Below are positions 49,922-60,993 of a stretch of DNA of 64,000 bases, piece after piece. Origin of the DNA: Methanolinea sp. (GTDB taxonomy: Archaea; Halobacteriota; Methanomicrobia; Methanomicrobiales; Methanospirillaceae); NCBI GenBank assembly GCA_030055515.1, contig JASFYI010000002.1, positions 251,290 through 315,289 on the forward strand, in the 5' to 3' direction. The notes under the pieces were generated by a model that was given only the letters and a program-made list of their open reading frames with translations, was not told where the DNA came from and made no database searches. The position numbers were made by a program, and so were the translations under genes. The number at the start of each line of letters is the position of its first letter. Position 1 is the stretch's first letter.

Positions 49922-50003
49922 GGGTGTTCCTCCGGCACGCGCGGGGATAAGTGTATGATAAAGTACCCGCCCGGTCTTAAAAAGGGCACGGGACCGCGGC
50001 CCG

Positions 50004-50783
50004 TCACGGCCGGATCTCTCCCTCCCTCACCATGAGGGTGCCCTTGCCCCTGTTCGCGATGTCCCCGCGGTACACGGCCATCCGGTACCTCTTCCCGCCG
50101 AACTCCACCTCGGCCGTCCCCTCGCGGACGAACGAGGGGAGGATCTCGCGCGCCTCCCCGAAGACCATGCAGGTCCCGCCCGTCATGTTCCCGCAGGGCC
50201 GGGTGCAGGACCCCCCGATGACGAGTGTCCCGCCCCGCATCTCGACGCCCGGCAGGTCGCCGCAGTCCCCGTGGACGATCACCTCGCCGCCCGAGAGGTA
50301 CTCGGCGACGAAGTCGCCGGCGCTGCCCATCACCTCTATCCTCCCGCCGCGCACCCCGCGCTTCTCCCCGCGGTACCCCGCGCCGCAGTAGTCGCCGGCG
50401 TTCCCCTCGCAGAGGATCTGCCCGCCCCGCATCTCGCGGCCGAGCCACGCGTCGGCGTTGCCCCGGATCAGGATCTCGCCGGCACTCATGAAGTTCCCGC
50501 AGTGCATCCCGATGTCCCCCTCGACGACGATCCTCCCCGCGTTCATGTACTCGCCCACGCGCTTGATCCGCCCCGTGTCCCCGGAGAGGACGATCTCGAC
50601 CTGGTCCGGCGAGACCGCCGGCCCCTCGACCGTGACGAAGAAGAGCTCTTCGAGGAGCCGCTCGCGGTTCCCCTCGTGCACGCGGATGTCGTTTCCCCGC
50701 AGGAAGTTCATCGGGACGATCGTCTCTGCCTCGACCGGGACGAGGGGGTTCTCCCGGGGCCTCGTCTTGAGCGTCACCTTCAC
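50004..50783 (-). CDS. fwdC: Formylmethanofuran dehydrogenase subunit C
   Basis: A 259-residue FwdC, a beta-helix subunit that contacts the A and B/D subunits of the CO2-reducing complex. The repeated GGxIxVxGxxGxxxG pattern is visible: AGRIVVEGDIGMHCG, GGQILCEGNAGDYCG, GGRIEVMGSAGDFV and GGEVIVHGDCGDLPG. Related glutamate synthase domains have the same fold. The GTG start overlaps the fwdA stop (GTGA). It is the last gene of the eha-fwd operon; an AT-poor gap separates it from the sensor gene. Confidence 0.95.
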   Translation of the reverse strand: MKVTLKTRPRENPLVPVEAETIVPMNFLRGNDIRVHEGNRERLLEELFFVTVEGPAVSPDQVEIVLSGDTGRIKRVGEYMNAGRIVVEGDIGMHCGNFMSAGEILIRGNADAWLGREMRGGQILCEGNAGDYCGAGYRGEKRGVRGGRIEVMGSAGDFVAEYLSGGEVIVHGDCGDLPGVEMRGGTLVIGGSCTRPCGNMTGGTCMVFGEAREILPSFVREGTAEVEFGGKRYRMAVYRGDIANRGKGTLMVREGEIRP

Positions 50784-52483
50784 AGCGCCGCCTCCGTCTC
50801 GATGCAGATCCCCCGCGGCACGTACTCGTCCTGCACGGGGTAGTTCCCGAACCTGACCGTGTAGTACTGCTCGAACTTCTCCCGGAATCCGGGGTCGGAC
50901 GCAACGTCATACTCGGGCGGGACCCGTGCCCGCGTCCAGATGGTGCTGTTCGCCCCCTCGACGACGACGTCCCCGTCCCTCGCGACGACTCGTCCCCTCT
51001 TGATCGTGTAGAGCGTCCGGGAGAAGCCCGCGACCACCTGTTGGTAGTCGGCGGAGGGGTCGACCTCGTCGGGCCGGAGCGGGTAGATCGCGACGTCGGC
51101 CTGCGCGCCGGGGGCGAGGTACCCCTTCCCGACCCGGGTGATCCCGAGGGCCTTCGCCTGCCCGGCCCGGGTCATCACCGCGATGTCGTACCAGTCCAGT
51201 TCCCTCTCGATCGCGAAGAGCGGGACGTAGTGCTCTGTCCTCGGCTCGATCTCCCTCCGCTCTGCCTCGCGCATCCGCCTGCTCATGAGCAGCCCGATCA
51301 CCTCGGGGTATTTCACGAACGGGGCGCCGTTCGGGTTGTCGGTCGAGAGGAGGCACTGCCAGGGGCTTTTGGCGAGGAGCGCGAGCTCTAGGCCGATCGC
51401 CCACATCACGCAGTTGACGAGGCTCTTCCTCCTGTAGGTGACCGGGATGATCCCTGACCCCGTCTCGAGCTCGACGTCGTGGTTGCTCCACTTGTTGTGG
51501 TGGAGGAGGTAGAGCCGGAACTCCATCGGGCCGTCGGCGGTCATCGTCGTCGTCCGCCCGAACATCACCTGCCCCATGTCGATGACGACCTGCGGCTTCC
51601 CGTTGAGCGACCGCGCGATCTCCTCGGACTTCGAGCAGATGTCCCGCCACGTCGTCCCGCCGTACGAGTGGAACTGGACGTGCGTGAGGTAGAGCGTCTG
51701 GCGGTCGCCCCGCGCCGGCGGGGCGAGCTCCATCGTCTCGAGCGTCGTCCTGTAGTTGCCGGGTATCCCGAGGTTGTTGCAGTGGAGGTGGACGGAGTGG
51801 GGGAGCCCGAGGAGCTCGTTCGCCTCGATCAGCGTCCGGATGATCTCTGCCGGCGTCACCCCGAAGTGCGGGACAGGCTCGTGGATGCCCGCGAGGTCCT
51901 TGCCCCAGCCCCACGCCTCGGTCCCGCCGGGGTTCGTGAGCTTGATCGCGAACCCCTTGACCGCGGCAAGGGTCCAGGCGACCACCGCCGCGGCCCTCTT
52001 CACGTCCTTCTCCCTGACGGCCTCCATGACCGACCAGTTCCCATCAAAGAGGGTGTTTGCGAGCATGTCCTGGTGGGGCGTCGCGGCGAACTCCTCGTGG
52101 GTGTGCCGCGCCTCGAGCGGGGCCATCGCGCCCTCGAGGACCGTCGTGTACCCCATCGCCGAGTACCTGTACGAGTTGCCGAACGTCGTGGGCACGCTGT
52201 AGCCGGACGTGACGTGCATCACGCCCCGGCGCGCCGTCCTGCCCGCCCGCATGTCCTCGGGACTCATGTACCGGCCGAAGTTCACCTTCGTCCCGCAGAC
52301 GTGCGAGTGCGAGTCTATCCCGCCCGGGAGCGTGAGGCACTTCTTCGCGTCGATCACCACCGCGCCCGGCGGCGCCTCCTCGACGATCCGGCCGCCCGCG
52401 ATCGCGATGTCCATCACCTCGCCCCTCACGCCGGAGAGGGGGTCGATCACGTACGCGTTCCGGATCAGCATCCCGGCCGTCAT
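50780..52483 (-). CDS. fwdA: Formylmethanofuran dehydrogenase subunit A
   Basis: A 567-residue amidohydrolase-fold subunit that condenses formate with methanofuran. It shows GIDSHSHVCGTKVNFGRYM, the metal-binding HSH, then AAVKGFAIKLTNPGG, which contains the lysine usually carboxylated to bridge two zinc ions, SVHLHCNNLG and LLSTDNPNGAPFVKYP. In the complex formate made at the tungsten site of FwdB passes through a channel to this subunit. The ATG overlaps the fwdB stop (ATGA). Confidence 0.97.
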   Translation of the reverse strand: MTAGMLIRNAYVIDPLSGVRGEVMDIAIAGGRIVEEAPPGAVVIDAKKCLTLPGGIDSHSHVCGTKVNFGRYMSPEDMRAGRTARRGVMHVTSGYSVPTTFGNSYRYSAMGYTTVLEGAMAPLEARHTHEEFAATPHQDMLANTLFDGNWSVMEAVREKDVKRAAAVVAWTLAAVKGFAIKLTNPGGTEAWGWGKDLAGIHEPVPHFGVTPAEIIRTLIEANELLGLPHSVHLHCNNLGIPGNYRTTLETMELAPPARGDRQTLYLTHVQFHSYGGTTWRDICSKSEEIARSLNGKPQVVIDMGQVMFGRTTTMTADGPMEFRLYLLHHNKWSNHDVELETGSGIIPVTYRRKSLVNCVMWAIGLELALLAKSPWQCLLSTDNPNGAPFVKYPEVIGLLMSRRMREAERREIEPRTEHYVPLFAIERELDWYDIAVMTRAGQAKALGITRVGKGYLAPGAQADVAIYPLRPDEVDPSADYQQVVAGFSRTLYTIKRGRVVARDGDVVVEGANSTIWTRARVPPEYDVASDPGFREKFEQYYTVRFGNYPVQDEYVPRGICIETEAAL

Positions 52484-53775
52484 CCCCTCGCCTCCCGTAC
52501 AAGGGCGTAGATCTTCCCGAGGACCTCGACGTCGTCGGGGACGTTGCGGGAGAGGACTTTCCTCGTCCGGAGCGGGACGCCGTCCATCCGGTACGCCGTC
52601 CCCTCGGCGTCGATCCCCGTGACCCCCACCGGGATCTGGATGCGCGAGAGGTGCGTCGTCGCGTTCACGTGGGGGTCGATCTGGACGGTGGGGATCCGGG
52701 CGAGGTGCGCGGCGCAGGCACGCGGGAAGTGCGCGCCCGGGTCGCTCGCGACGACGAGGCAGGCGTCGCACTCGCCCCTCCGGAGGATGTCGACTGCCGT
52801 CGTCTCGCCCGGGTTGTAGAACGCGATCCCCCGCGAGAAGTCGATCGCGAACGGGTAGCCCGTGATCCACGTGAAGACCTCGTTTGACCCGTACACGTTC
52901 CAGTGGCCCCGGAGCGGCGAGATCGTGAACTTCGTGTGGCGGTTCAGCTCCTCGACGAGCTCGATCGCGTTGCGGACGTTCTTGTACTTCCCGCGGGACA
53001 TCGTGAGCCCGAGGCCGAAGAAGACCGCCCCGAACTTCGCGGAGAGGCAGGTCTGCGCGACCCTCTCGAGCTGCTCGCGGGGGACTCCCGCGACGGTGTC
53101 CGGGACGAACTCTCCCTTCCCCCGGACGATCATCCGGAGCGCGGTGAGGACCGCGTAGTCCCCGCCCGGCGCGACCCTCACGAACTCGTCGGCGACCTCG
53201 GAGGAGTCGGTCTCCCGGACGTCCACGACGATCACCTTCCTCTCGCGGAACGCGGACTTCACGAAGAACCCGTCGGCGTAGGTCGTGTACCTGCTCATGT
53301 GGCGGGGGTGGGCCTGGATGGGGTTTGCGCCCCAGTACACGATCACGTCGGCCCTGTTCTTCACCTGCCCGAGCGTGCAGCCCGGGTGGCCGACCTCCTG
53401 GATCGCCATGATGGAGGGGCCGTGGCAGACGGTGGAGGTGTTGTCGATGACCGCGCCGAGGAGCTCGGCGAGGTGGACGCCGATCGTCTGGGCCTCGACG
53501 ACCGTCCCGCTCCACCCGTAGAGGAGGGGGCGCTTCGCGGAGAGGAGGATCTCGGCCGTCTCGCGGATCGCCTCGTCGTACGTGGTCTCCTCCCACTTCC
53601 CGCCGCGCCGCCGGATGGGGTGGGGGAGGCGGTGGTCGCCCGTGAACTTCTCGTTCGCGAGGGTGCACCCGTTCTCGACCGCGACGACCCTCTCCCCCTC
53701 GACCGTCACGGCGAGGTCGTCGCAGAGGCAGCCGCAGAACGGGCAGACGACGTCCTCAACCCTCGTAGGGCACAC
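52480..53775 (-). CDS. fwdB: Formylmethanofuran dehydrogenase subunit B (tungsten/molybdenum site)
   Basis: A 431-residue catalytic subunit that reduces CO2 to formate at a W- or Mo-bispyranopterin. Cys11, Cys14, Cys18 and Cys37 bind a 4Fe-4S cluster (CPFCGCLCDD and VENGCTLANE). Cys117 in NTSTVCHGPS is the expected metal ligand; it is Cys and not selenocysteine. The remaining sequence follows the molybdopterin oxidoreductase fold. Tungsten and molybdenum versions cannot be told apart by reading. The GTG start overlaps the end of fwdD by 20 bases. Confidence 0.96.
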   Translation of the reverse strand: MCPTRVEDVVCPFCGCLCDDLAVTVEGERVVAVENGCTLANEKFTGDHRLPHPIRRRGGKWEETTYDEAIRETAEILLSAKRPLLYGWSGTVVEAQTIGVHLAELLGAVIDNTSTVCHGPSIMAIQEVGHPGCTLGQVKNRADVIVYWGANPIQAHPRHMSRYTTYADGFFVKSAFRERKVIVVDVRETDSSEVADEFVRVAPGGDYAVLTALRMIVRGKGEFVPDTVAGVPREQLERVAQTCLSAKFGAVFFGLGLTMSRGKYKNVRNAIELVEELNRHTKFTISPLRGHWNVYGSNEVFTWITGYPFAIDFSRGIAFYNPGETTAVDILRRGECDACLVVASDPGAHFPRACAAHLARIPTVQIDPHVNATTHLSRIQIPVGVTGIDAEGTAYRMDGVPLRTRKVLSRNVPDDVEVLGKIYALVREARG

Positions 53776-54145
53776 CCCCGCAGGCCCCCATCAGCTCCGC
53801 GACGGTCGGCGGTCTCTCCTCGGCCGGCTCGATCTCGACGGGGACGGTCTTATAGTCCGGCATCCCGGTCGCGTGCGTCCACGGGTCCACGATCGCGTTC
53901 GCGTGCGGCCCGAGGCAGGCGAAGACGATCCCCCTCGGGAGCAACGGGTCCCCCGCGACCCGCATCACCACCGATCCCCCGGGCCCAGTCACCCTGACGG
54001 GATCGCCATCCTCGACGAGGAGATCGAGCATGTCGACGGGGTTCATCCGGACCGTTGAGGCCTCCTCGGCGTACACTGGCGTGTTCTTCCGCTCGACGAA
54101 ACTGCCCTGCCGGATGGTCCTCCCCGTCGTCATCAGGAACTTCAT
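53756..54145 (-). CDS. fwdD: Formylmethanofuran dehydrogenase subunit D
   Basis: A 129-residue molybdopterin-dinucleotide-binding domain that completes FwdB. It reads KFLMTTGRTIRQGSFVERKN, then VRMNPVDMLDLLVEDGDPVR and VFACLGPHANAIVDPWTHATG, all typical. It overlaps both neighbours (fwdB by 20 bases; the polyferredoxin gene stop by 4), so translation is coupled. Confidence 0.95.
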   Translation of the reverse strand: MKFLMTTGRTIRQGSFVERKNTPVYAEEASTVRMNPVDMLDLLVEDGDPVRVTGPGGSVVMRVAGDPLLPRGIVFACLGPHANAIVDPWTHATGMPDYKTVPVEIEPAEERPPTVAELMGACGGVPYEG

Positions 54146-54753
54146 TGCCCCTCCCCCTGCACGTGGACCGCCGAAAGAAGCCTCGCGACCGAGATCGCGC
54201 CATTCGGGCAGTTGTCCTCACACGTCTTGCACCCCGTGCACTTCTCGGCGTGCAGGACCCTGCATTTCCCGTCGCTCACCTTGAGGAGGAGGTCTTCGGT
54301 CGACGCGTGGCCGCCGTGCGCCATCTGGGCGTCGACCAGCTTGTTGACCGGGCAGGAGACCGCGCAGTTCCCGCACCCCATGCACCGGGCAAGGTCGACG
54401 TCGATGCGGAAGGAGAAGGAGAGACCCGTGCGGGCGAGCGCGACGGACTCGAGGATCCGCCCGCTCGAGAGGACGCCGTTCGGGCAGGCCTCGACGCAGA
54501 GCCCGCACCGGATGCAGTGCCCCTCGTGGATCCGCGGCTCCCAGCCGGTGGGCGTCCGCACGACCTCGATTGCGCCCGGCGCCGGGCAGACCATCATGCA
54601 GTGGAGGTGGTGGGTGCAGGTCTTGCCCGAGAGGACGGGGAAGTTGCGGAAGTAGGGCGGGGCGACGAGCGGCGCGGTCTTCGCCGCGAGGAACTTCTTT
54701 ACCCACTCGAGCCGGCAGAACTCCCTTGCGTACGCGACGATCGAGAGTGGCAT
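54142..54753 (-). CDS. Polyferredoxin linking Eha and Fwd
   Basis: A 203-residue iron-sulfur protein. Three standard 4Fe-4S motifs are HCIRCGLCVEACP, RCMGCGNCAVSCP and KCTGCKTCEDNCP. A fourth, less regular cysteine group, TCTHHLHCMMVCP, lies near residue 46. It starts three bases after the hydrogenase large subunit gene and overlaps fwdD by four. It probably passes electrons from the hydrogenase to Fwd, as an EhaP-like or FwdF/G-like protein; which it is most related to is unclear. Confidence 0.9.
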   Translation of the reverse strand: MPLSIVAYAREFCRLEWVKKFLAAKTAPLVAPPYFRNFPVLSGKTCTHHLHCMMVCPAPGAIEVVRTPTGWEPRIHEGHCIRCGLCVEACPNGVLSSGRILESVALARTGLSFSFRIDVDLARCMGCGNCAVSCPVNKLVDAQMAHGGHASTEDLLLKVSDGKCRVLHAEKCTGCKTCEDNCPNGAISVARLLSAVHVQGEGQ

Positions 54754-54756
54754 TCC

Positions 54757-55842
54757 TCACCTCTCCGTGCAGGCGATGCAGGGGTCGGCCGAGACGAACG
54801 TGGACGTCACGTCCGCAAGCGACGTCACCCCTTTCAGCATGTAGTGGCAGCACGCCTCGATGTTCATGATCGAGGGGGTCTGGATGGAGATCTCGCGGAT
54901 CCTGCCCGCCGCGTCGGTCTTCACGAAGTACGTGAGCTCCCCGCGGGGCGCCTCGCCGGAGTATGCGATCTCCCCCTCGCCCGGGATCCCCCCGCCCCGG
55001 ATCGGGCCGGGCGAAAGCGCGTCGAGGCACTTTTCGATGAGCCCGATGGACTGGTCGATCTCCATGAACCGGACCATCACCCGCGCGAAGTTGTCGCCCT
55101 CGGTCCGCGTGACCGGGGAGAACCCGAGGGACCTGTACGTGGGGTGCTCCGTCCGCCTGTCGACGGGAATCCCGCTCGCCCGCGCCGTCGGGCCGACCGC
55201 GTGCGCCTCCCGCGCCGCCTCCCGCGTGAGGATCCCTACCCCCCTGCTCCGGAGGGCGATGAGCGGCCCGCCCTCGAACATCTCCCTGTACCGCCGGACC
55301 TCGGTCCCTATCCCGGCGAGTGCAGCCCGCAGCGCGGCAGCGTCCTCGGGCCGGAGGTCGAACCGGACGCCCCCCGGGACGATGTACGCGCACGTCACCC
55401 TCGCCCCCGTGATCCGCTCGAGCTGGTCCATCACTTTCTCGCGCACGTCGAGGAGGTACATCGCGAGCGTCTCGTGCTCGATCGTGTAGCAGTACGAGAA
55501 GTTCGCGAGGAGGTGGCTCTGGATCCTGTCGAGCTCGTTGACGACCACCCGGAGGAGCGCGGCCCGCGGCGGGACGGGGATCCCGCTGATCCCCTCGAGC
55601 GCCTCGATGAAGACCATGTTGTGGATGACCGAGCAGATCCCGCAGACGCGCTCGGCGAGGAACATCACCTCCTGCCACGGCCTCCCGCGCATGATCCTCT
55701 CGATCCCCTTCTTCATGTACCCTAGCTCGACCTCGGCGGAGAGGACCATCTCCCCCCTCGTCTCGCACTTCACCCGCGCCGGCTCTTTCCAGCAGGGGTG
55801 GACCGGGCCGACCGGGATCGAGACGTCGACGGTACGCTTCAC
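54757..55842 (-). CDS. ehaO: Energy-converting hydrogenase Eha, large catalytic subunit
   Basis: A 361-residue [NiFe] large subunit. Nickel ligands are Cys67 and Cys70 (ERVCGIC) and Cys355 and Cys358 (DPCIACTER). VGPVHPCWKEPARVKCE at the start and ELGYMKKGIERIMRGRPW fit the group 4 hydrogenase type related to complex I NuoD. No C-terminal peptide beyond the last motif remains to be cleaved, as is usual for this group. The GTG overlaps the small-subunit stop. It oxidises H2 and reduces ferredoxin using the ion gradient. Confidence 0.95.
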   Translation of the reverse strand: MKRTVDVSIPVGPVHPCWKEPARVKCETRGEMVLSAEVELGYMKKGIERIMRGRPWQEVMFLAERVCGICSVIHNMVFIEALEGISGIPVPPRAALLRVVVNELDRIQSHLLANFSYCYTIEHETLAMYLLDVREKVMDQLERITGARVTCAYIVPGGVRFDLRPEDAAALRAALAGIGTEVRRYREMFEGGPLIALRSRGVGILTREAAREAHAVGPTARASGIPVDRRTEHPTYRSLGFSPVTRTEGDNFARVMVRFMEIDQSIGLIEKCLDALSPGPIRGGGIPGEGEIAYSGEAPRGELTYFVKTDAAGRIREISIQTPSIMNIEACCHYMLKGVTSLADVTSTFVSADPCIACTER

Positions 55843-56294
55843 TTCGCCTTCACCTCGTAGTCCTCGAATACCGTGGGCGCGACCGCGAGGATCGCGGAGA
55901 TGATCTCGGTCGGCCGCGGCGGGCAGCCGGGCACCTGCGCCGCGATCGGGATGTGCTTTGCGACCGGGGGGTCGACGAGGGTGCGGGGGCGGGCGAAGAG
56001 GCACCCCGAGATCGGGCAGTTCCCGATCGCGATCGCGGCCTTCGGCGGGGGGATCTTCTCCCACAGCCCCCGCAGCTTCTCTTCCCAGCCGGGCGTGAAC
56101 GCCCCGATGACGAGGAGGATGTCGGCCTCCCGCGGGTTGTTGTGGACGAAGATCCCGTACTGCTCGATGTCGTACCGCGGCGAGAGGCATGCGAGGACCT
56201 CGATGTCGCACCCGTTGCAGGACCCGACGTCCACGTACGCGACGTGGATCGACCGGGCGCGGACGAAGTTCTTGACCTTCTGGAGGATCGTCAC
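55839..56294 (-). CDS. ehaN: Energy-converting hydrogenase Eha, small subunit
   Basis: A 151-residue NuoB-like small subunit with one 4Fe-4S cluster. Ligands are CNGCD (Cys26, Cys29), IAIGNCPISG and VPGCPPRPTEI. ADILLVIGAF is also typical of group 4 hydrogenase small subunits. It carries electrons from the nickel site to ferredoxin. The GTG start overlaps the ehaM stop by four bases. Confidence 0.95.
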   Translation of the reverse strand: MTILQKVKNFVRARSIHVAYVDVGSCNGCDIEVLACLSPRYDIEQYGIFVHNNPREADILLVIGAFTPGWEEKLRGLWEKIPPPKAAIAIGNCPISGCLFARPRTLVDPPVAKHIPIAAQVPGCPPRPTEIISAILAVAPTVFEDYEVKAK

Positions 56295-56680
56295 CCGAGG
56301 ACCGCCTCCCTGACGAGTGCCTTCCCCCGCGCGACCGCCTCCGCGGGGGGGACGCCCGACGCGGCGAGCGCCTTCGTCCCCTCCACGATCTCGGCCATCG
56401 CCCGCGGGGGGACGATCGGGACCGCCCGGGTGTAGAGGTGGGCGGAGAGCGCACCCTCGATCCCGCCGGCCTCGCGGTCGACCCTCTTCCCCTCCTCGTA
56501 GCGCGCCGGCAGGTTCTCGAGGAGGATCATGTCCAGCCGCTCCATGAGGATCCGCCGGAGCCGGAGGTGGGGGATCCCGAGGTCAGACGCGATCTCGCGG
56601 ACGACCCGGTCGTGCCGCGCGCTCTCGAGGATGTGGTACTTCACCGCGGAGAGGTCCTTCTCGAAGAGTACTTCCTTCAT
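56291..56680 (-). CDS. ehaM: Eha subunit M (DUF1959 type)
   Basis: A 129-residue soluble protein, largely helical, with YHILESARHDRVVREIASDL, LRLRRILMERLDMILLE and a C-terminal helix. This fits the DUF1959 family found as EhaM in methanogen eha operons, and the position directly before the small-subunit gene is the same. The role is structural or unknown. Both junctions are 4-base overlaps. Confidence 0.82.
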   Translation of the reverse strand: MKEVLFEKDLSAVKYHILESARHDRVVREIASDLGIPHLRLRRILMERLDMILLENLPARYEEGKRVDREAGGIEGALSAHLYTRAVPIVPPRAMAEIVEGTKALAASGVPPAEAVARGKALVREAVLG

Positions 56681-56919
56681 GCGATCCCTCCCAGCCGCGC
56701 GAGGGTGTACCCGAGGAAGAGGAGGACGGCTGCCCAGAGCGCTGCCTTCTCCCACGCCCCGAGAATCACCCTGTCGCGGACGAAGTACATCGCGGTCGCC
56801 GCCGCGAGCGCCGTTCCCGCGAGCAGCCCCTCGACCCAGAGCGAGGGGCGGGCGGCGACCTGCAGCCCGATGATCACGAGATAGATCGCGCACGCCGCCC
56901 CTAAAATGACGCGTATCAT
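56677..56919 (-). CDS. Small Eha membrane subunit (EhaL position)
   Basis: An 80-residue membrane protein with helices at about 3-20, 30-48 and 58-75. It lies between ehaJ and ehaM, where EhaK and EhaL are found in other methanogens; only one small gene is present here. I assign it as EhaL-like by position. It has 4-base overlaps on both sides. Confidence 0.75.
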   Translation of the reverse strand: MIRVILGAACAIYLVIIGLQVAARPSLWVEGLLAGTALAAATAMYFVRDRVILGAWEKAALWAAVLLFLGYTLARLGGIA

Positions 56920-57758
56920 GCCACCACCCCGAGCACCCAGACGTAGGCGAGGACGAGGCCCGCGACGATCGTCTGGACCGTCACGCTGTCGTACGGCGAG
57001 AGCATAGGGCTGAGCGCGCAGGCGAACGAGAGCGAGAGGAGGAGGAGGAGCATCCCCGCGAGCACCGCGAGGAATGGGAGCTCTCCGAGGAAGACGACGA
57101 GGAACGCGGCGAGGAGGACGTACGTCTTGAGCCCGTTGCAGACCTCGAGGCCCGCCCGCCACGCGCCGAAGTGCTCGGTCTTGTACCCGCTCACGAGCTC
57201 CTTTGACTCGACGATCGAGAACGGCCCGAAAGGCATCTTCGAGAGGAGGACGAGCCACATCGCGATTGCTGCCGGCGGCGCCGCGAGGAGGAGCGGCCCG
57301 TGGACCGCCTGGTACGCCACGATGTCCCGGAGCGAGAGGGAGCGCGTGAAGACCGCGATCCCCGCGACGCTCACGAAGAGCGGGATCTCGGACGCGGCCG
57401 AGATGACCGACCGGACACCCCCGAACTTCCCGTACGGCGAGCCCGACGAGAGCCCGAATCCGTGCTCCACGATCTTGTGGAGCATGTAGATCGCGAAGAG
57501 GACGAGGAGGCTCCCGCCCGAGAGGACGACCGCGAGCGCGGCCGTCCATATCCCGATCGCGACGAGGACGATCCCCACGAAGAGGGCGGCGCTCGCGGTC
57601 GCCGGCACCCACGTCGCCTTGAAGGAGAACTTGAGCGCGTGGAGGATCTCCTGCCAGACGGGGGGCCCGGGCCTCCGCTGGATCCGGGCGATCACCTTCC
57701 GGTGGATGCCGAGGAGGAGGAGGCCGAAGACCGTGGCAAAGATGGTCTCTGCGATCAT
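56916..57758 (-). CDS. ehaJ: Eha subunit J (NuoH-like)
   Basis: A 280-residue integral membrane protein of the NuoH/HyfC type that connects the hydrogenase module to the ion channel. LLLLGIHRKVIARIQRRPGPPVWQ is the conserved first loop, and AASEIPLFVSVAG and MPFGPFSIVESKELVSGY carry the conserved acidic residues. About eight helices are present. The ATG at 57758 is four bases before the upstream stop codon reading on the minus strand. Confidence 0.92.
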   Translation of the reverse strand: MIAETIFATVFGLLLLGIHRKVIARIQRRPGPPVWQEILHALKFSFKATWVPATASAALFVGIVLVAIGIWTAALAVVLSGGSLLVLFAIYMLHKIVEHGFGLSSGSPYGKFGGVRSVISAASEIPLFVSVAGIAVFTRSLSLRDIVAYQAVHGPLLLAAPPAAIAMWLVLLSKMPFGPFSIVESKELVSGYKTEHFGAWRAGLEVCNGLKTYVLLAAFLVVFLGELPFLAVLAGMLLLLLSLSFACALSPMLSPYDSVTVQTIVAGLVLAYVWVLGVVA

Positions 57759-57760
57759 GG

Positions 57761-57976
57761 CTAGTACCCCACGAACGGGATGTCGGGATCCCCCCTCGGC
57801 GCCATCCACGCGAGGAAGAGCGCGAGCACGAGGACGGGGAACGCCGCGACCCATGCCGCGACCTCTACGGGGTGCGGGAGGACACCCGCGAGGACGAGCG
57901 CGTGCGCGCACCCGCCCGCGAGCGCCGCGGAGACGGCGGCCACGCGGGCATAGTCCCTCACCTTCCCGGGCGTCAC
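57761..57976 (-). CDS. Small Eha membrane subunit (EhaI position)
   Basis: A 71-residue protein with two helices (about 9-28 and 35-58), ending APRGDPDIPFVGY. It lies between ehaH and ehaJ, the EhaI position. The GTG at 57976 overlaps the ehaH stop (GTGA); a longer N-terminus is possible but would overlap ehaH more. Sequence identity with EhaI cannot be judged by eye. Confidence 0.72.
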   Translation of the reverse strand: MTPGKVRDYARVAAVSAALAGGCAHALVLAGVLPHPVEVAAWVAAFPVLVLALFLAWMAPRGDPDIPFVGY

Positions 57977-58629
57977 AGGAGGAACACCACCTCCGCGACG
58001 CGCAGGAAGATGAGGAGGGACGAGAGCGAGCACATGATGACGTACGGTGCCCCGGGCGCCCGGAACATCTCGGCCTTCGCCGCGTAGAACGGGGCCATCC
58101 CCTCGCCCATCACCCCGAGGACGAGGAGCGCCTTTGCGACCGGCGGGACGGCGGGTGCCCCCGGCTCGGCGAGCGCGAGCATGGAGAGCGTCCCGGTCGT
58201 CCCCGCGACGAGTGCCGCGGCGGCGAACATCGGGACCGTGCCCGCGAGCGCGACGAGCCCGTACTGGAACGCGGCGTCCTGCACGTGCCGCGTCCTCACC
58301 GCCGCGACGATCCCCACGTTCGCGATCCCGACGAGCGAGACGAAGAGCGTGTAGTCAAAGACGTCGCCCGTCACCATCGCGCCCATGCAGGCGAGGCCGC
58401 AGGCGACCGACATGAACCTCCGGAACCGGAGCTCGGGGAGCGTGATCGTCTTCGCGAGGAGTGCATCCGCCCCGAACGCGATCTCGAGCTGCCTCTCCGG
58501 CCTGCTCGCGAGGGCAAAGACCGTGAAGACGAGCGCGAACAGGAAGAGCGTGACCGTGAACGGCGTGAAGTACGCGACGATGTCGCCGAACTCGAGGAAG
58601 AAGAACGGGGCGCCCCCGGGCGTGTTCAT
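57973..58629 (-). CDS. ehaH: Eha subunit H (NuoN/Mrp-like ion-translocating)
   Basis: A 218-residue membrane protein with about six helices resembling part of the NuoL/M/N antiporter family. MVTGDVFDYTLFVSLVGIAN and ALLVLGVMGEGMAPFYAAKAEMF, with acidic and basic residues in membrane helices, suggest the ion path. It is shorter than NuoN (about 450), as in Eha of other methanogens. The ATG overlaps the ehaG stop. Confidence 0.82.
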   Translation of the reverse strand: MNTPGGAPFFFLEFGDIVAYFTPFTVTLFLFALVFTVFALASRPERQLEIAFGADALLAKTITLPELRFRRFMSVACGLACMGAMVTGDVFDYTLFVSLVGIANVGIVAAVRTRHVQDAAFQYGLVALAGTVPMFAAAALVAGTTGTLSMLALAEPGAPAVPPVAKALLVLGVMGEGMAPFYAAKAEMFRAPGAPYVIMCSLSSLLIFLRVAEVVFLL

Positions 58630-59231
58630 CCCGGCTCCCCCCACATCGCCCCGACGAGCGAGATCTTTGTGATGACCTTGAGGAGGATCCCGACCGCGGC
58701 GCCCATGAGCGCGAGGTACCACAGGTCGGGCGCGAGCATGAAGACGAAGAACGATGCGACCCAGAGCGCCCACGATATCCCGCTCGCGAGCTCGAGCACG
58801 TGGAAATCGCCCGAGAACGCGTTGTTCATGAAGTAGAAGACGAGCCCGAGCGCCGCGATCCCCCCTCCCGTGAACCCCGAGAGGACGATCCCGTACACGA
58901 CGAGGAACGCGGGGATGACGACGGTCGCCGCCGACTTCCGGACGACCTCGATCTCGAGCCCCCGGCAGGGGACCGCCGCGATCCCCTCCTTCGCGATGTA
59001 GAGCTGGGAGAGCGCGAGGAGCTCGGCGATCCCGACGACGAGGCCCGGGAGGATGAGCGCCTCGGCGAGGTCGGTCGCGAGGAGGGCGATCGCCGCGATG
59101 GACGCGACCTCGACGAGGTCGACGAGGAGGAGCTTGTGGAGGTCGTCGCGCTCCCTGCAGAGCGCGGAGAACCCGACGAACGCCGCGGCGAAGACGACGA
59201 GGAGCCCGAACGAGTACTCGTTCCACTCCAT
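58626..59231 (-). CDS. ehaG: Eha subunit G
   Basis: A 201-residue membrane protein with about six helices, including LLVVFAAAFVGFSALC, ASIAAIALLATDLAEALILP and YLALMGAAVGILLKVITKIS. Size and position match EhaG (DUF2105). It contains acidic residues in the second helix (DLVEVASIAAIALLATDLAEA) that could take part in ion transfer. The start is four bases after the ehaF stop. Confidence 0.82.
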   Translation of the reverse strand: MEWNEYSFGLLVVFAAAFVGFSALCRERDDLHKLLLVDLVEVASIAAIALLATDLAEALILPGLVVGIAELLALSQLYIAKEGIAAVPCRGLEIEVVRKSAATVVIPAFLVVYGIVLSGFTGGGIAALGLVFYFMNNAFSGDFHVLELASGISWALWVASFFVFMLAPDLWYLALMGAAVGILLKVITKISLVGAMWGEPG

Positions 59232-59235
59232 GGGG

Positions 59236-59685
59236 CTACTCCTCCCTCCTGTGGTAGAGGTACGCGGCGACCGCGAACGCGACGAAGAGGATCGTCGGCT
59301 CGACGACCGTGTCGAGGCCCCGCGTATTGTACAGGATCTCGTCCAGTATCCCGCCGGGGTGGCCGACGATCGTCGTGCCCATGTACATCGTGTGCTCCGC
59401 GAGGAAGAGGGAGAGGGGCGTGAGGTACGCGGTCACGTATCCCGCCGTGGGCGAGTTCTCCGGGTACTGGACGTGGACCTTTGCCTGCGTGAACGGCGGG
59501 CCGCCCCTGTCGTAGGGGTCGAGCGGGCTTTCCGGGACGGTCCTCTTCGGGTAGAGCGGGTCGCCATGCGGCGCGAGGGGGAGCGAGAGGAGGGCAATTA
59601 TCGAGAGGACCGCGCACGCCCCCGCAAAGAGCGGGAGGATGTTTTCGTAGTCGGAGAGGACGCGCGAGATCCGCGGGATGATCAC
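59236..59685 (-). CDS. ehaF: Eha subunit F
   Basis: A 149-residue protein with helices at about 15-37 and 125-143 and a long polar loop between them (SPLDPYDRGGPPFTQAKVHV). Size and order match EhaF (DUF2106), with a loop on the outer face likely. The GTG start overlaps the ehaE stop (GTGA). Confidence 0.8.
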   Translation of the reverse strand: MIIPRISRVLSDYENILPLFAGACAVLSIIALLSLPLAPHGDPLYPKRTVPESPLDPYDRGGPPFTQAKVHVQYPENSPTAGYVTAYLTPLSLFLAEHTMYMGTTIVGHPGGILDEILYNTRGLDTVVEPTILFVAFAVAAYLYHRREE

Positions 59686-59921
59686 GGCCGCCCCTCCCTC
59701 TTCTGGATGACGCGGGCAAAGATGTAGACCGAGAGCGCCGAGACGCACCCGTACGTGAGGAGGGCGAGCGCCTCGTTGTACGCGAGCATCAGGAGGAGGA
59801 CGCCGATCCCCGGGACCTCGAGCGCGATCAGCCGCGAGAGGTACGTCCTCGGGCGGGGGAACGCCGTCCCGAGCGTCCCGGCGAGGATCAGGAAGAGCCC
59901 GAGCGCGAACTCCGGGGTCAC
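59682..59921 (-). CDS. ehaE: Eha subunit E
   Basis: A 79-residue membrane protein with two or three helices, including FALGLFLILAGTLGTAF and VLLLMLAYNEALALLTYGCV. It resembles MnhC/NuoK-type small subunits; the in-membrane Glu of YNEALALL fits such a role. Size and position match EhaE (DUF2107). The GTG start overlaps the ehaD stop. Confidence 0.8.
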   Translation of the reverse strand: MTPEFALGLFLILAGTLGTAFPRPRTYLSRLIALEVPGIGVLLLMLAYNEALALLTYGCVSALSVYIFARVIQKREGRP

Positions 59922-60148
59922 CCCTCACCCCCCGGGCAGGCCATCAGGATGAAGATGGTCGAGAGGGGGAAGACGAGCGAGACGGCGATCGCGACGTCGA
60001 GCAGCCCCCTCCCGACGACGAACGGGATCGCCCCCGCGACCACGAGCGAGAGCGCGATGATCTTCCTGTACGGGTCCTCCTCCCGCAGGACGAGGATGCA
60101 GCCGAGCACGACGAGGAACGAGAGCATGAGGGCGAGCGCGGGGTTCAT
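59918..60148 (-). CDS. ehaD: Eha subunit D
   Basis: A 76-residue membrane protein with three helices: ALALMLSFLVVLGCILVL, IIALSLVVAGAIPFVV and VAIAVSLVFPLSTIFIL. Size and position match EhaD (DUF2108), related to small Mnh/Mrp subunits. The ATG overlaps the ehaC stop (ATGA). Confidence 0.8.
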   Translation of the reverse strand: MNPALALMLSFLVVLGCILVLREEDPYRKIIALSLVVAGAIPFVVGRGLLDVAIAVSLVFPLSTIFILMACPGGEG

Positions 60149-60399
60149 TGCCTGCCGATCCCCCCCGCGTACGTGCTCGCGATGGCGTTCGACTCGAGCG
60201 TGGACCCGACGAAGTACGCGGCCGCGGCCACGATCGCGAGGGGGTGGGGGAGGAGGAGCGCGATCACCCCCGCGATCGCGAAGGAGAGGACGTTGAGGAA
60301 CGGGAGCTTGCGGAGCGTGTCGGGCTCGAGGGCGACCCGGACCCCCGCGTAGACCGCGATCCCCCCGCACGCGAGGAGTGCGACCTCCCCCGGCGTCAC
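60145..60399 (-). CDS. ehaC: Eha subunit C
   Basis: An 84-residue membrane protein with three helices, VALLACGGIAVYAGVRVAL, FAIAGVIALLLPHPLAIVA and a C-terminal polar end. Size and position fit EhaC (DUF2109). The GTG at 60399 is chosen because it makes the GTGA overlap with ehaB used throughout this operon and has GTGAGGAG upstream; an ATG at 60417 is the alternative. Confidence 0.8.
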   Translation of the reverse strand: MTPGEVALLACGGIAVYAGVRVALEPDTLRKLPFLNVLSFAIAGVIALLLPHPLAIVAAAAYFVGSTLESNAIASTYAGGIGRQ

Positions 60400-60893
60400 C
60401 CGCTCCTCACCCTCCATATCCTGTCGAGCAGCCGGCTCGCGTGGACGTGGGAGATCCCCTGCACCGTGAGGATCGCGACCACCATCCCCGCGATGAACTC
60501 GGCCGGCGAGAAACCGAGGAACGAGAAACCGTGCACGATGAACGTCGCGGTGACCGCGCCCGTCGTGCCCGCGTAGCCGGGGTCGTGGCAGATCCTGTTC
60601 CCGACGAAGACGAGCAGGGCGGAAAGGAGTCCGCCCGGGATCCCCGCGATGTACACCCCGCAGGAGGCGAGGAGCGTCCCCGCCGAGGCGTCGGGGGAGG
60701 AGACGATGTTTCCCATCATCGTCCCGCCGGCAAGCGATCCCCCCTTCGCCTCGATGTGCCGGGCGATCGCGGTCGCCCCGACGACCCCCCCGCGTTCAGG
60801 GAGCTTAAAAATCATGTCTATCGTCACGAAGTTGAGCCAGCAGACGGCTGCGGCGGCGAGGATGTGCACTGTGGTCAGGAGAACGGGGTCCAT
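60396..60893 (-). CDS. ehaB: Eha subunit B, first gene of the eha-fwd operon
   Basis: A 165-residue membrane protein with about four helices. It begins MDPVLLTTVHILAAAAVCWL and includes TLLASCGVYIAGIPGGLLSA and HGFSFLGFSPAEFIAGMVVA. Size and position match EhaB. No EhaA gene precedes it: the 100 bases before it lead straight to the end of trkH. This gap should contain the operon promoter; an AT-rich stretch lies at about 60940. Confidence 0.8.
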   Translation of the reverse strand: MDPVLLTTVHILAAAAVCWLNFVTIDMIFKLPERGGVVGATAIARHIEAKGGSLAGGTMMGNIVSSPDASAGTLLASCGVYIAGIPGGLLSALLVFVGNRICHDPGYAGTTGAVTATFIVHGFSFLGFSPAEFIAGMVVAILTVQGISHVHASRLLDRIWRVRSG

Positions 60894-60993
60894 CGGGCCG
60901 TCAACATACTGGTGATAGGGTGCCGGAGTCAATAATGTTTTGTTTTGCACATTCGGCGCGATTGGAGGGTTTCTTCCGCGCCGCCTCCCCCCC

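Follow-up and report, generated by a model that had tools for sequence, protein, structure and literature searches.

In three Methanomicrobiales, genes of the hydrogenase Eha were found to adjoin those of formylmethanofuran dehydrogenase (Fwd or Fmd), and Eha was suggested to reduce the ferredoxin of that enzyme (Anderson et al. 2009, PMC2686161). Methanocorpusculum has two fwd clusters, associated with eha and hdr respectively, for which separate ferredoxins were proposed (Gilmore et al. 2017, PMC5563889); a Methanoculleus has four fwd loci, beside Ech, Eha, Hdr and Fdh (PMC11201294); and in Methanospirillum the fmd genes flank Eha (PMC11346949). The linkage of eha and fwd is therefore not new, having been published since 2009, and an anaplerotic interpretation of it has likewise appeared (PMC2686161, PMC5563889). 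The current work concerns a cluster of the same neighbourhood and lineage, likewise accompanied by a second Fwd beside Hdr, in the genome of Methanolinea sp. It occupies positions 50004-60893 of the window, which is the whole 64,000-nucleotide stretch of contig JASFYI010000002.1 that was analyzed. The passages of the published accounts that treat these clusters describe adjacency and separate ferredoxins and do not mention what is reported here, a fusion of a NuoI-type ferredoxin domain with the Fwd subunit FwdG. No earlier report of such a fusion was found in the open-access literature searched, and it may be noted elsewhere.

The cluster consists of 18 consecutive open reading frames on the minus strand, from the start of ehaB at 60893 to the stop of fwdC at 50004, in the order ehaB-C-D-E-F-G-H-I-J-K/L-M-N-O, polyferredoxin, fwdD-B-A-C. 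Thirteen of the 17 junctions are 4-base overlaps; the remaining ones are gaps of 4 bases (ehaF/G), 2 bases (ehaI/J) and 3 bases (ehaO/polyferredoxin) and an overlap of 20 bases (fwdD/B), when the GTG at 60399 is taken as the start of ehaC. A first-pass annotation of the sequence had described just such an 18-gene string, with 4-base overlaps, gaps of at most four bases and one 20-base overlap, and the recount confirmed it. Between the hydrogenase and the dehydrogenase genes lies the polyferredoxin, which has the following parts.

54142-54753, minus strand: two-headed polyferredoxin, 203 amino acids, four Fe-S motifs (family, alignment, fold)
54448-54753, minus strand: N half (residues 1-102), 2[4Fe-4S] hydrogenase outlet of the NuoI/MbhN type (NCBIfam NuoI, fold)
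54160-54435, minus strand: C half (residues 107-198), FwdG domain (fold, sequence, hidden Markov model)

The C half folds well in the predicted model of the protein. Among all PDB entries, the five best Foldseek matches of the model were FwdG chains from three Fwd complexes, with template modelling (TM) scores by target of 0.73-0.89. The best sequence matches of the C half were 9sfi_U, an 80-residue chain whose entry contains Fwd subunits as well, and the FwdG of 5t5i and 7bkb. Against a hidden Markov model of the C half, FwdG reached 84 and 54 bits and the FwdF domains at most 31. Its two clusters are spaced by 37 residues in 74 of 76 relatives, within the 35-38 of FwdG and far from the 20 of EchF/MbhN, and all eight cysteines are invariant over 54 sequences. 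Two independent routes, predicted fold and profile competition, agree in pointing to FwdG. The first-pass annotation had regarded FwdF, FwdG and FwdE as absent; there is indeed no separate fwdF, fwdG or fwdE gene within 50004-60893, but a FwdG domain is provided by residues ~107-198 of the polyferredoxin, and the possibility that the eha-linked Fwd lacks FwdG was rejected on the basis of these fold and sequence matches. A simple regular-expression signature for FwdG fitted 70 of the 76 fusion proteins and did not fit all FwdG proteins; it was dropped.

The N half was refolded alone, with a wider alignment, because it was unreliable in the full-length model, and then reached a mean predicted local distance difference test (pLDDT) score of 82. 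Its fold matches were led by the complex I subunit NuoI, followed by MBS, HycF of formate hydrogenlyase and MbhN, and the NuoI profile of NCBIfam covers residues 32-113. In the first Fe-S motif of this half, CTHHLHCMMVCP (54598-54618, residues 46-52), His replaces the second cysteine. By sequence and predicted fold, the 203-residue polyferredoxin is a NuoI/MbhN-type outlet fused to FwdG. The phylum sample that was searched seems to hold no class I methanogens and hence no EhaP/EhaQ for comparison with the fusion.

Each half also has a separate counterpart, one in the operon of each partner. At locus L102 (genome G141, from another family), a 103-residue protein encoded immediately behind ehaO matches the N half by itself (110 bits), and at L103 (G123) an 81-residue FwdG, its gene flanked by fwdB and fwdA, matches the C half by itself (84 bits). 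A fusion that unites subunits of two complexes is a classic sign that these complexes are in contact. In family f25 (G232 and G308), the fusion sits with eha, and the sole fwdDBAC cluster lies elsewhere. The relocated fwd clusters of this family and of family f2 have no fwdF or fwdG of their own, and the fused protein remains with eha. It might be argued from G232 and G308, where fwd does not adjoin eha, that the FwdG half is a vestige, left from an ancient fusion within Eha and now out of contact with Fwd. The invariant cysteines and conserved inter-cluster spacing of the C half make this very improbable; moreover, the fwd cluster of both genomes lacks fwdG, and among all their proteins the C half is the best candidate for it. 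Two-headed polyferredoxins also occur as second copies at a distance from eha (L122:9770-10468 and L123:9643-10278), that of L122 near molybdopterin (moeA-like) and nitroreductase-like genes.

Since the N half is of the hydrogenase outlet type and the C half corresponds to FwdG, the electron inlet of Fwd, the polyferredoxin would deliver electrons straight into FwdB. The two-headed protein thus suggests that Eha and Fwd plug directly together, and the fused domains make a direct Eha-Fwd complex more likely. The explanation towards which we lean, with moderate confidence, is a membrane-anchored, hard-wired and anaplerotic H2:CO2 reductase in which the polyferredoxin feeds FwdB directly. EhaNO would oxidize H2, and the membrane arm of Eha would presumably spend an ion gradient to drive the electrons to low potential; the electrons would run from the N-half clusters through the C-half clusters to FwdB, which would reduce CO2 to formate, and FwdA would then make formylmethanofuran. 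FwdF, which multimerizes Fwd and connects it to Hdr, would not be needed in this isoenzyme. The overall plan would resemble formate hydrogenlyase run towards CO2 reduction by an ion gradient.

Fwd without FwdF is known from Candidatus Ethanoperedens (8RJA, PMC11493965), which has FwdABCD and FwdG, as here, with an F420-reductase module attached beside FwdG in place of FwdF; this enzyme also provides the closest solved relatives of FwdB and FwdC. Its partner is a soluble F420 reductase, whereas the partner here would be a membrane hydrogenase. In the Hdr-Fwd-Fdh complex of Methanospirillum (7BKB), Fwd is hard-wired to its electron source by polyferredoxins, as proposed here, but that complex uses the Hdr-linked isoenzyme with FwdF, the operon of which is present separately in this genome. 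The formate hydrogenlyase FHL-1 (7z0s/7z0t) has the plan proposed here, of a group 4 hydrogenase, a NuoI-type ferredoxin subunit (HycF) and a Mo/W formate-type enzyme; in contrast to FHL-1, Fwd makes formylmethanofuran, the bridge differs and the direction is likely opposite. At the present locus the genes show the parts of such a plan and the NuoI-type/FwdG fusion, from which an FHL-like supercomplex may be formed. Group 4 hydrogenases are reversible and formate hydrogenlyase has the same plan, so the machine could work mainly in reverse, with Fwd oxidizing formylmethanofuran or formate and feeding Eha for H2 production and ion pumping. Such a direction seems very improbable: Methanomicrobiales make their living by reducing CO2 with H2 or formate (PMC2686161), and the Eha of M. 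maripaludis is anaplerotic, working from H2 towards CO2 (Lie et al. 2012, as cited in PMC5563889).

The dehydrogenase at the end of the string is encoded by four genes.

53756-54145, minus strand: fwdD (Molydop_binding above cut-off; best NCBIfam match FwdD, below its strict cut-off)
52480-53775, minus strand: fwdB, catalytic W/Mo subunit (TIGR03129, 602 bits against a cut-off of 328)
50780-52483, minus strand: fwdA, amidohydrolase subunit (TIGR03121, 764 against 393 bits)
50004-50783, minus strand: fwdC (TIGR03122, 246 against 131 bits)

In FwdB, Cys117, which we take to be the catalytic cysteine, and C11, C14, C18 and C37, presumably the [4Fe-4S] ligands, are invariant in the alignment. No FmdE (PF02663) was detected in the whole genome. 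The FwdF polyferredoxin, absent from this operon, is present in a second fwd operon of the genome.

The genome searched comprises 1.76 Mb and is 99% complete; Methanolinea/Methanoregulaceae are the named organisms closest to it. Its second fwd set, on contig C3, reads fwdG, fwdF, hdrC, hdrB, hdrA, mvhD, fwdD, fwdB, fwdA, fwdC and is directly followed by the mcr operon (L006:15298-19001); the two FwdB copies are 49% identical. The first-pass annotation had proposed to look for a second fwd copy and had named a main fwd operon elsewhere as evidence against its own reading, and an operon with fwdG and fwdF does exist, beside hdrABC, mvhD and mcr. The idea that the eha-linked Fwd is the only Fwd of the cell was rejected on this ground. 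For the same reason the polyferredoxin cannot be the only wire of the whole cell, as had been considered possible, although for the eha-linked isoenzyme that description may still apply. The Hdr-linked Fwd, beside mcr, is likely the main enzyme, and on that account the eha-linked Fwd would probably be anaplerotic, topping up the cycle beside it. Codon adaptation, with the mcr genes as reference, was uninformative for ranking the expression of the two operons, because the GC content of third codon positions is near saturation. The other [NiFe] hydrogenases of the genome are FrhA, one Ech-type cluster and one Mbh-type cluster; no MvhA-type hydrogenase was found in the genome (G000:C1), although mvhD adjoins hdrABC.

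Availability of many genomes of the order made it possible to follow the string outside Methanolinea. Among 80 loci recovered by a search with EhaO, gene order is, apart from a few exceptions, the same as far as contig ends permit. Four-base overlaps join polyferredoxin and fwdD at 67 of 72 junctions and fwdB and fwdA at 55 of 67. The gene string is therefore not due to chance: independent genomes of Methanomicrobiales repeat its order and its 4-base overlaps. Eha occurs in 100 of 119 genomes, and in 74 of these 100 EhaO and FwdB lie on the same strand, 915-1088 bases apart. The operon-like linkage of Eha, polyferredoxin and Fwd that the first-pass annotation described is thus borne out, and the comparison of gene order that it suggested shows order and tight spacing to be conserved. 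The remaining Eha-bearing genomes belong mostly to family f2, in which eha-polyferredoxin and fwdDBAC lie at different places, or to genus g24, in which the polyferredoxin is followed by fwdA and fwdC and a fused FwdD-FwdB is encoded elsewhere, or have contig breaks. FwdD-FwdB fusions of 573-591 residues were seen in some Methanomicrobiales (L111:5992-7713, L119:5241-7016 and L115:1791-3515). In one Methanospirillaceae contig (L060:8995-10083), eha stops at ehaO and the polyferredoxin and fwd are absent from the next 3 kb, which reflects either a chimeric assembly or a real loss.

FwdB isoforms are separated by bit score (at least 734 for the Eha type, ~720 or less for other types), and the Eha type occurs in none of the 19 Eha-lacking genomes; the co-occurrence count used a cut of 690 bits, and the isoform-separating threshold gives the same result. 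In the tree, linked and unlinked copies of Eha-type FwdB form one clade (support 100/99), apart from the Hdr-type copies. Co-loss of the isoform and Eha alone is weak evidence, because the genes sit together; retention of the isoform where it is unlinked is stronger evidence. The fixed stoichiometry that had been deduced from the overlaps is unproven. Overlapping genes hint at coupled translation without dictating ratios, and family f2 encodes the same isoform away from eha.

The published reading of such clusters (PMC2686161, PMC5563889, in the passages that treat them) amounts to co-regulation only, in which a shared operon serves the first step, electrons pass through the soluble ferredoxin pool and the polyferredoxin is an Eha outlet with extra clusters. 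Genomes of family f2 and Methanomicrobium-like genomes, which have eha and the polyferredoxin with fwd elsewhere, are in keeping with this. On the other hand, the C half is specifically FwdG rather than a generic ferredoxin, and each half has its separate counterpart in a partner's operon, so co-regulation only is possible but rather unlikely. The Methanomicrobium-type genomes, in which eha and the polyferredoxin are kept and no fwd follows downstream (L070:6273-6878 and L083:10136-10732), provide a natural experiment for coupling.

Several points weigh against the hard-wired reductase. A single operon deletion could explain why isoform and Eha are missing together. The isoform is unlinked in about nine genomes, mostly beside an Hdr-type fwd cluster with a FwdG that could be borrowed, and some genomes have Eha and the fused protein without linked fwd. 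The N half folded poorly in the full-length model, its fold match is modest (E 6e-4, TM 0.45-0.5), and small ferredoxins easily look alike. At the second cysteine of its first motif, about half of 77 relatives have Ala, His or Glu; the remaining relatives and the split N-half protein have Cys. One N-half cluster may be altered or lost. Finally, no Eha structure was found in the PDB by a search with EhaH, and no complex has been reported.

The genes of the hydrogenase and the likely transcription signals of the string are listed below.

60927-60947, minus strand: AT-rich, TATA-like stretch, likely promoter, ~40-50 bases upstream of ehaB (read in the sequence)
60396-60893, minus strand: ehaB, which opens the string and encodes an Eha membrane subunit (position, and orthologues in Eha clusters of the order; no Pfam/NCBIfam match)
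60145-60399, minus strand: ehaC (DUF2109, Pfam), with the GTG start that gives a 4-base overlap
59918-60148, minus strand: ehaD (DUF2108, Pfam)
59682-59921, minus strand: ehaE (DUF2107, Pfam)
59236-59685, minus strand: ehaF (DUF2106, Pfam)
58626-59231, minus strand: ehaG (DUF2105, Pfam)
57973-58629, minus strand: ehaH (NADHdeh_related, Pfam)
57761-57976, minus strand: small, fast-evolving membrane protein at the ehaI position (position and orthologues; no family match)
56916-57758, minus strand: ehaJ, NuoH-like membrane subunit (PF00146)
56677-56919, minus strand: ehaK or ehaL, small membrane protein (position; no family match)
56291-56680, minus strand: ehaM, hydrophilic subunit (PF09218 marginally above cut-off; profile match to 1nxh/MTH396, E 2e-27)
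55839-56294, minus strand: ehaN, hydrogenase small subunit (PF01058)
54757-55842, minus strand: ehaO, [NiFe] hydrogenase large subunit (family match, both CxxC pairs)
49976-49990, minus strand: T-run, possible terminator, downstream of fwdC (read in the sequence)

As the AT-rich stretch precedes ehaB and the T-run follows fwdC, one transcript of the whole string is plausible. The Eha genes were recognized through Pfam and NCBIfam (DUF2105-2109, NADHdeh_related, NADHdh, Oxidored_q6, Complex1_49kDa/NiFe, Fer4), and the membrane subunits DUF2105-2109, NADHdeh_related and NADHdh all score above cut-off. The CxxC pairs of EhaO expected for the NiFe site, C67/C70 and C355/C358, are invariant in 18 aligned sequences. 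The core and membrane subunits follow the same order as in Eha of class I methanogens (EhaA-T), which has the polyferredoxins EhaP/EhaQ in Methanothermobacter; here ehaA and one of ehaK/ehaL are missing. A complete EhaA-EhaO set was thus not found, the upstream neighbour being TrkH rather than ehaA. Absence of EhaA is the norm in Methanomicrobiales (PMC2686161), and the other missing subunit seems, from the sequence, to be EhaL or EhaK. Anderson et al. (2009, PMC2686161) reported both EhaA and EhaM absent from the order. EhaM is present here at 56291-56680, contrary to that report; the gene is assigned as EhaM because its profile matches 1nxh, which is MTH396, known to be EhaM (PMC2674652).

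Bioenergetics has yet to explain how methanogens start the CO2-reducing step again, or top it up, when bifurcation is insufficient; Eha has so far been thought to act through free ferredoxin. With a bridge that has a hydrogenase end and an Fwd end, a direct, ion-driven CO2 reductase becomes a concrete idea that can be tested in culturable genera, Methanoculleus and Methanospirillum among them. If the idea is true, a purifiable complex is predicted, which would offer an isolation handle for Eha. We put at about even the chances that Methanomicrobiales possess an Eha-Fwd supercomplex joined by a single bridging protein; it would be a third feed of Fwd, in addition to Hdr/Mvh bifurcation and free ferredoxin, and through it the ion gradient would be used directly for CO2 fixation.

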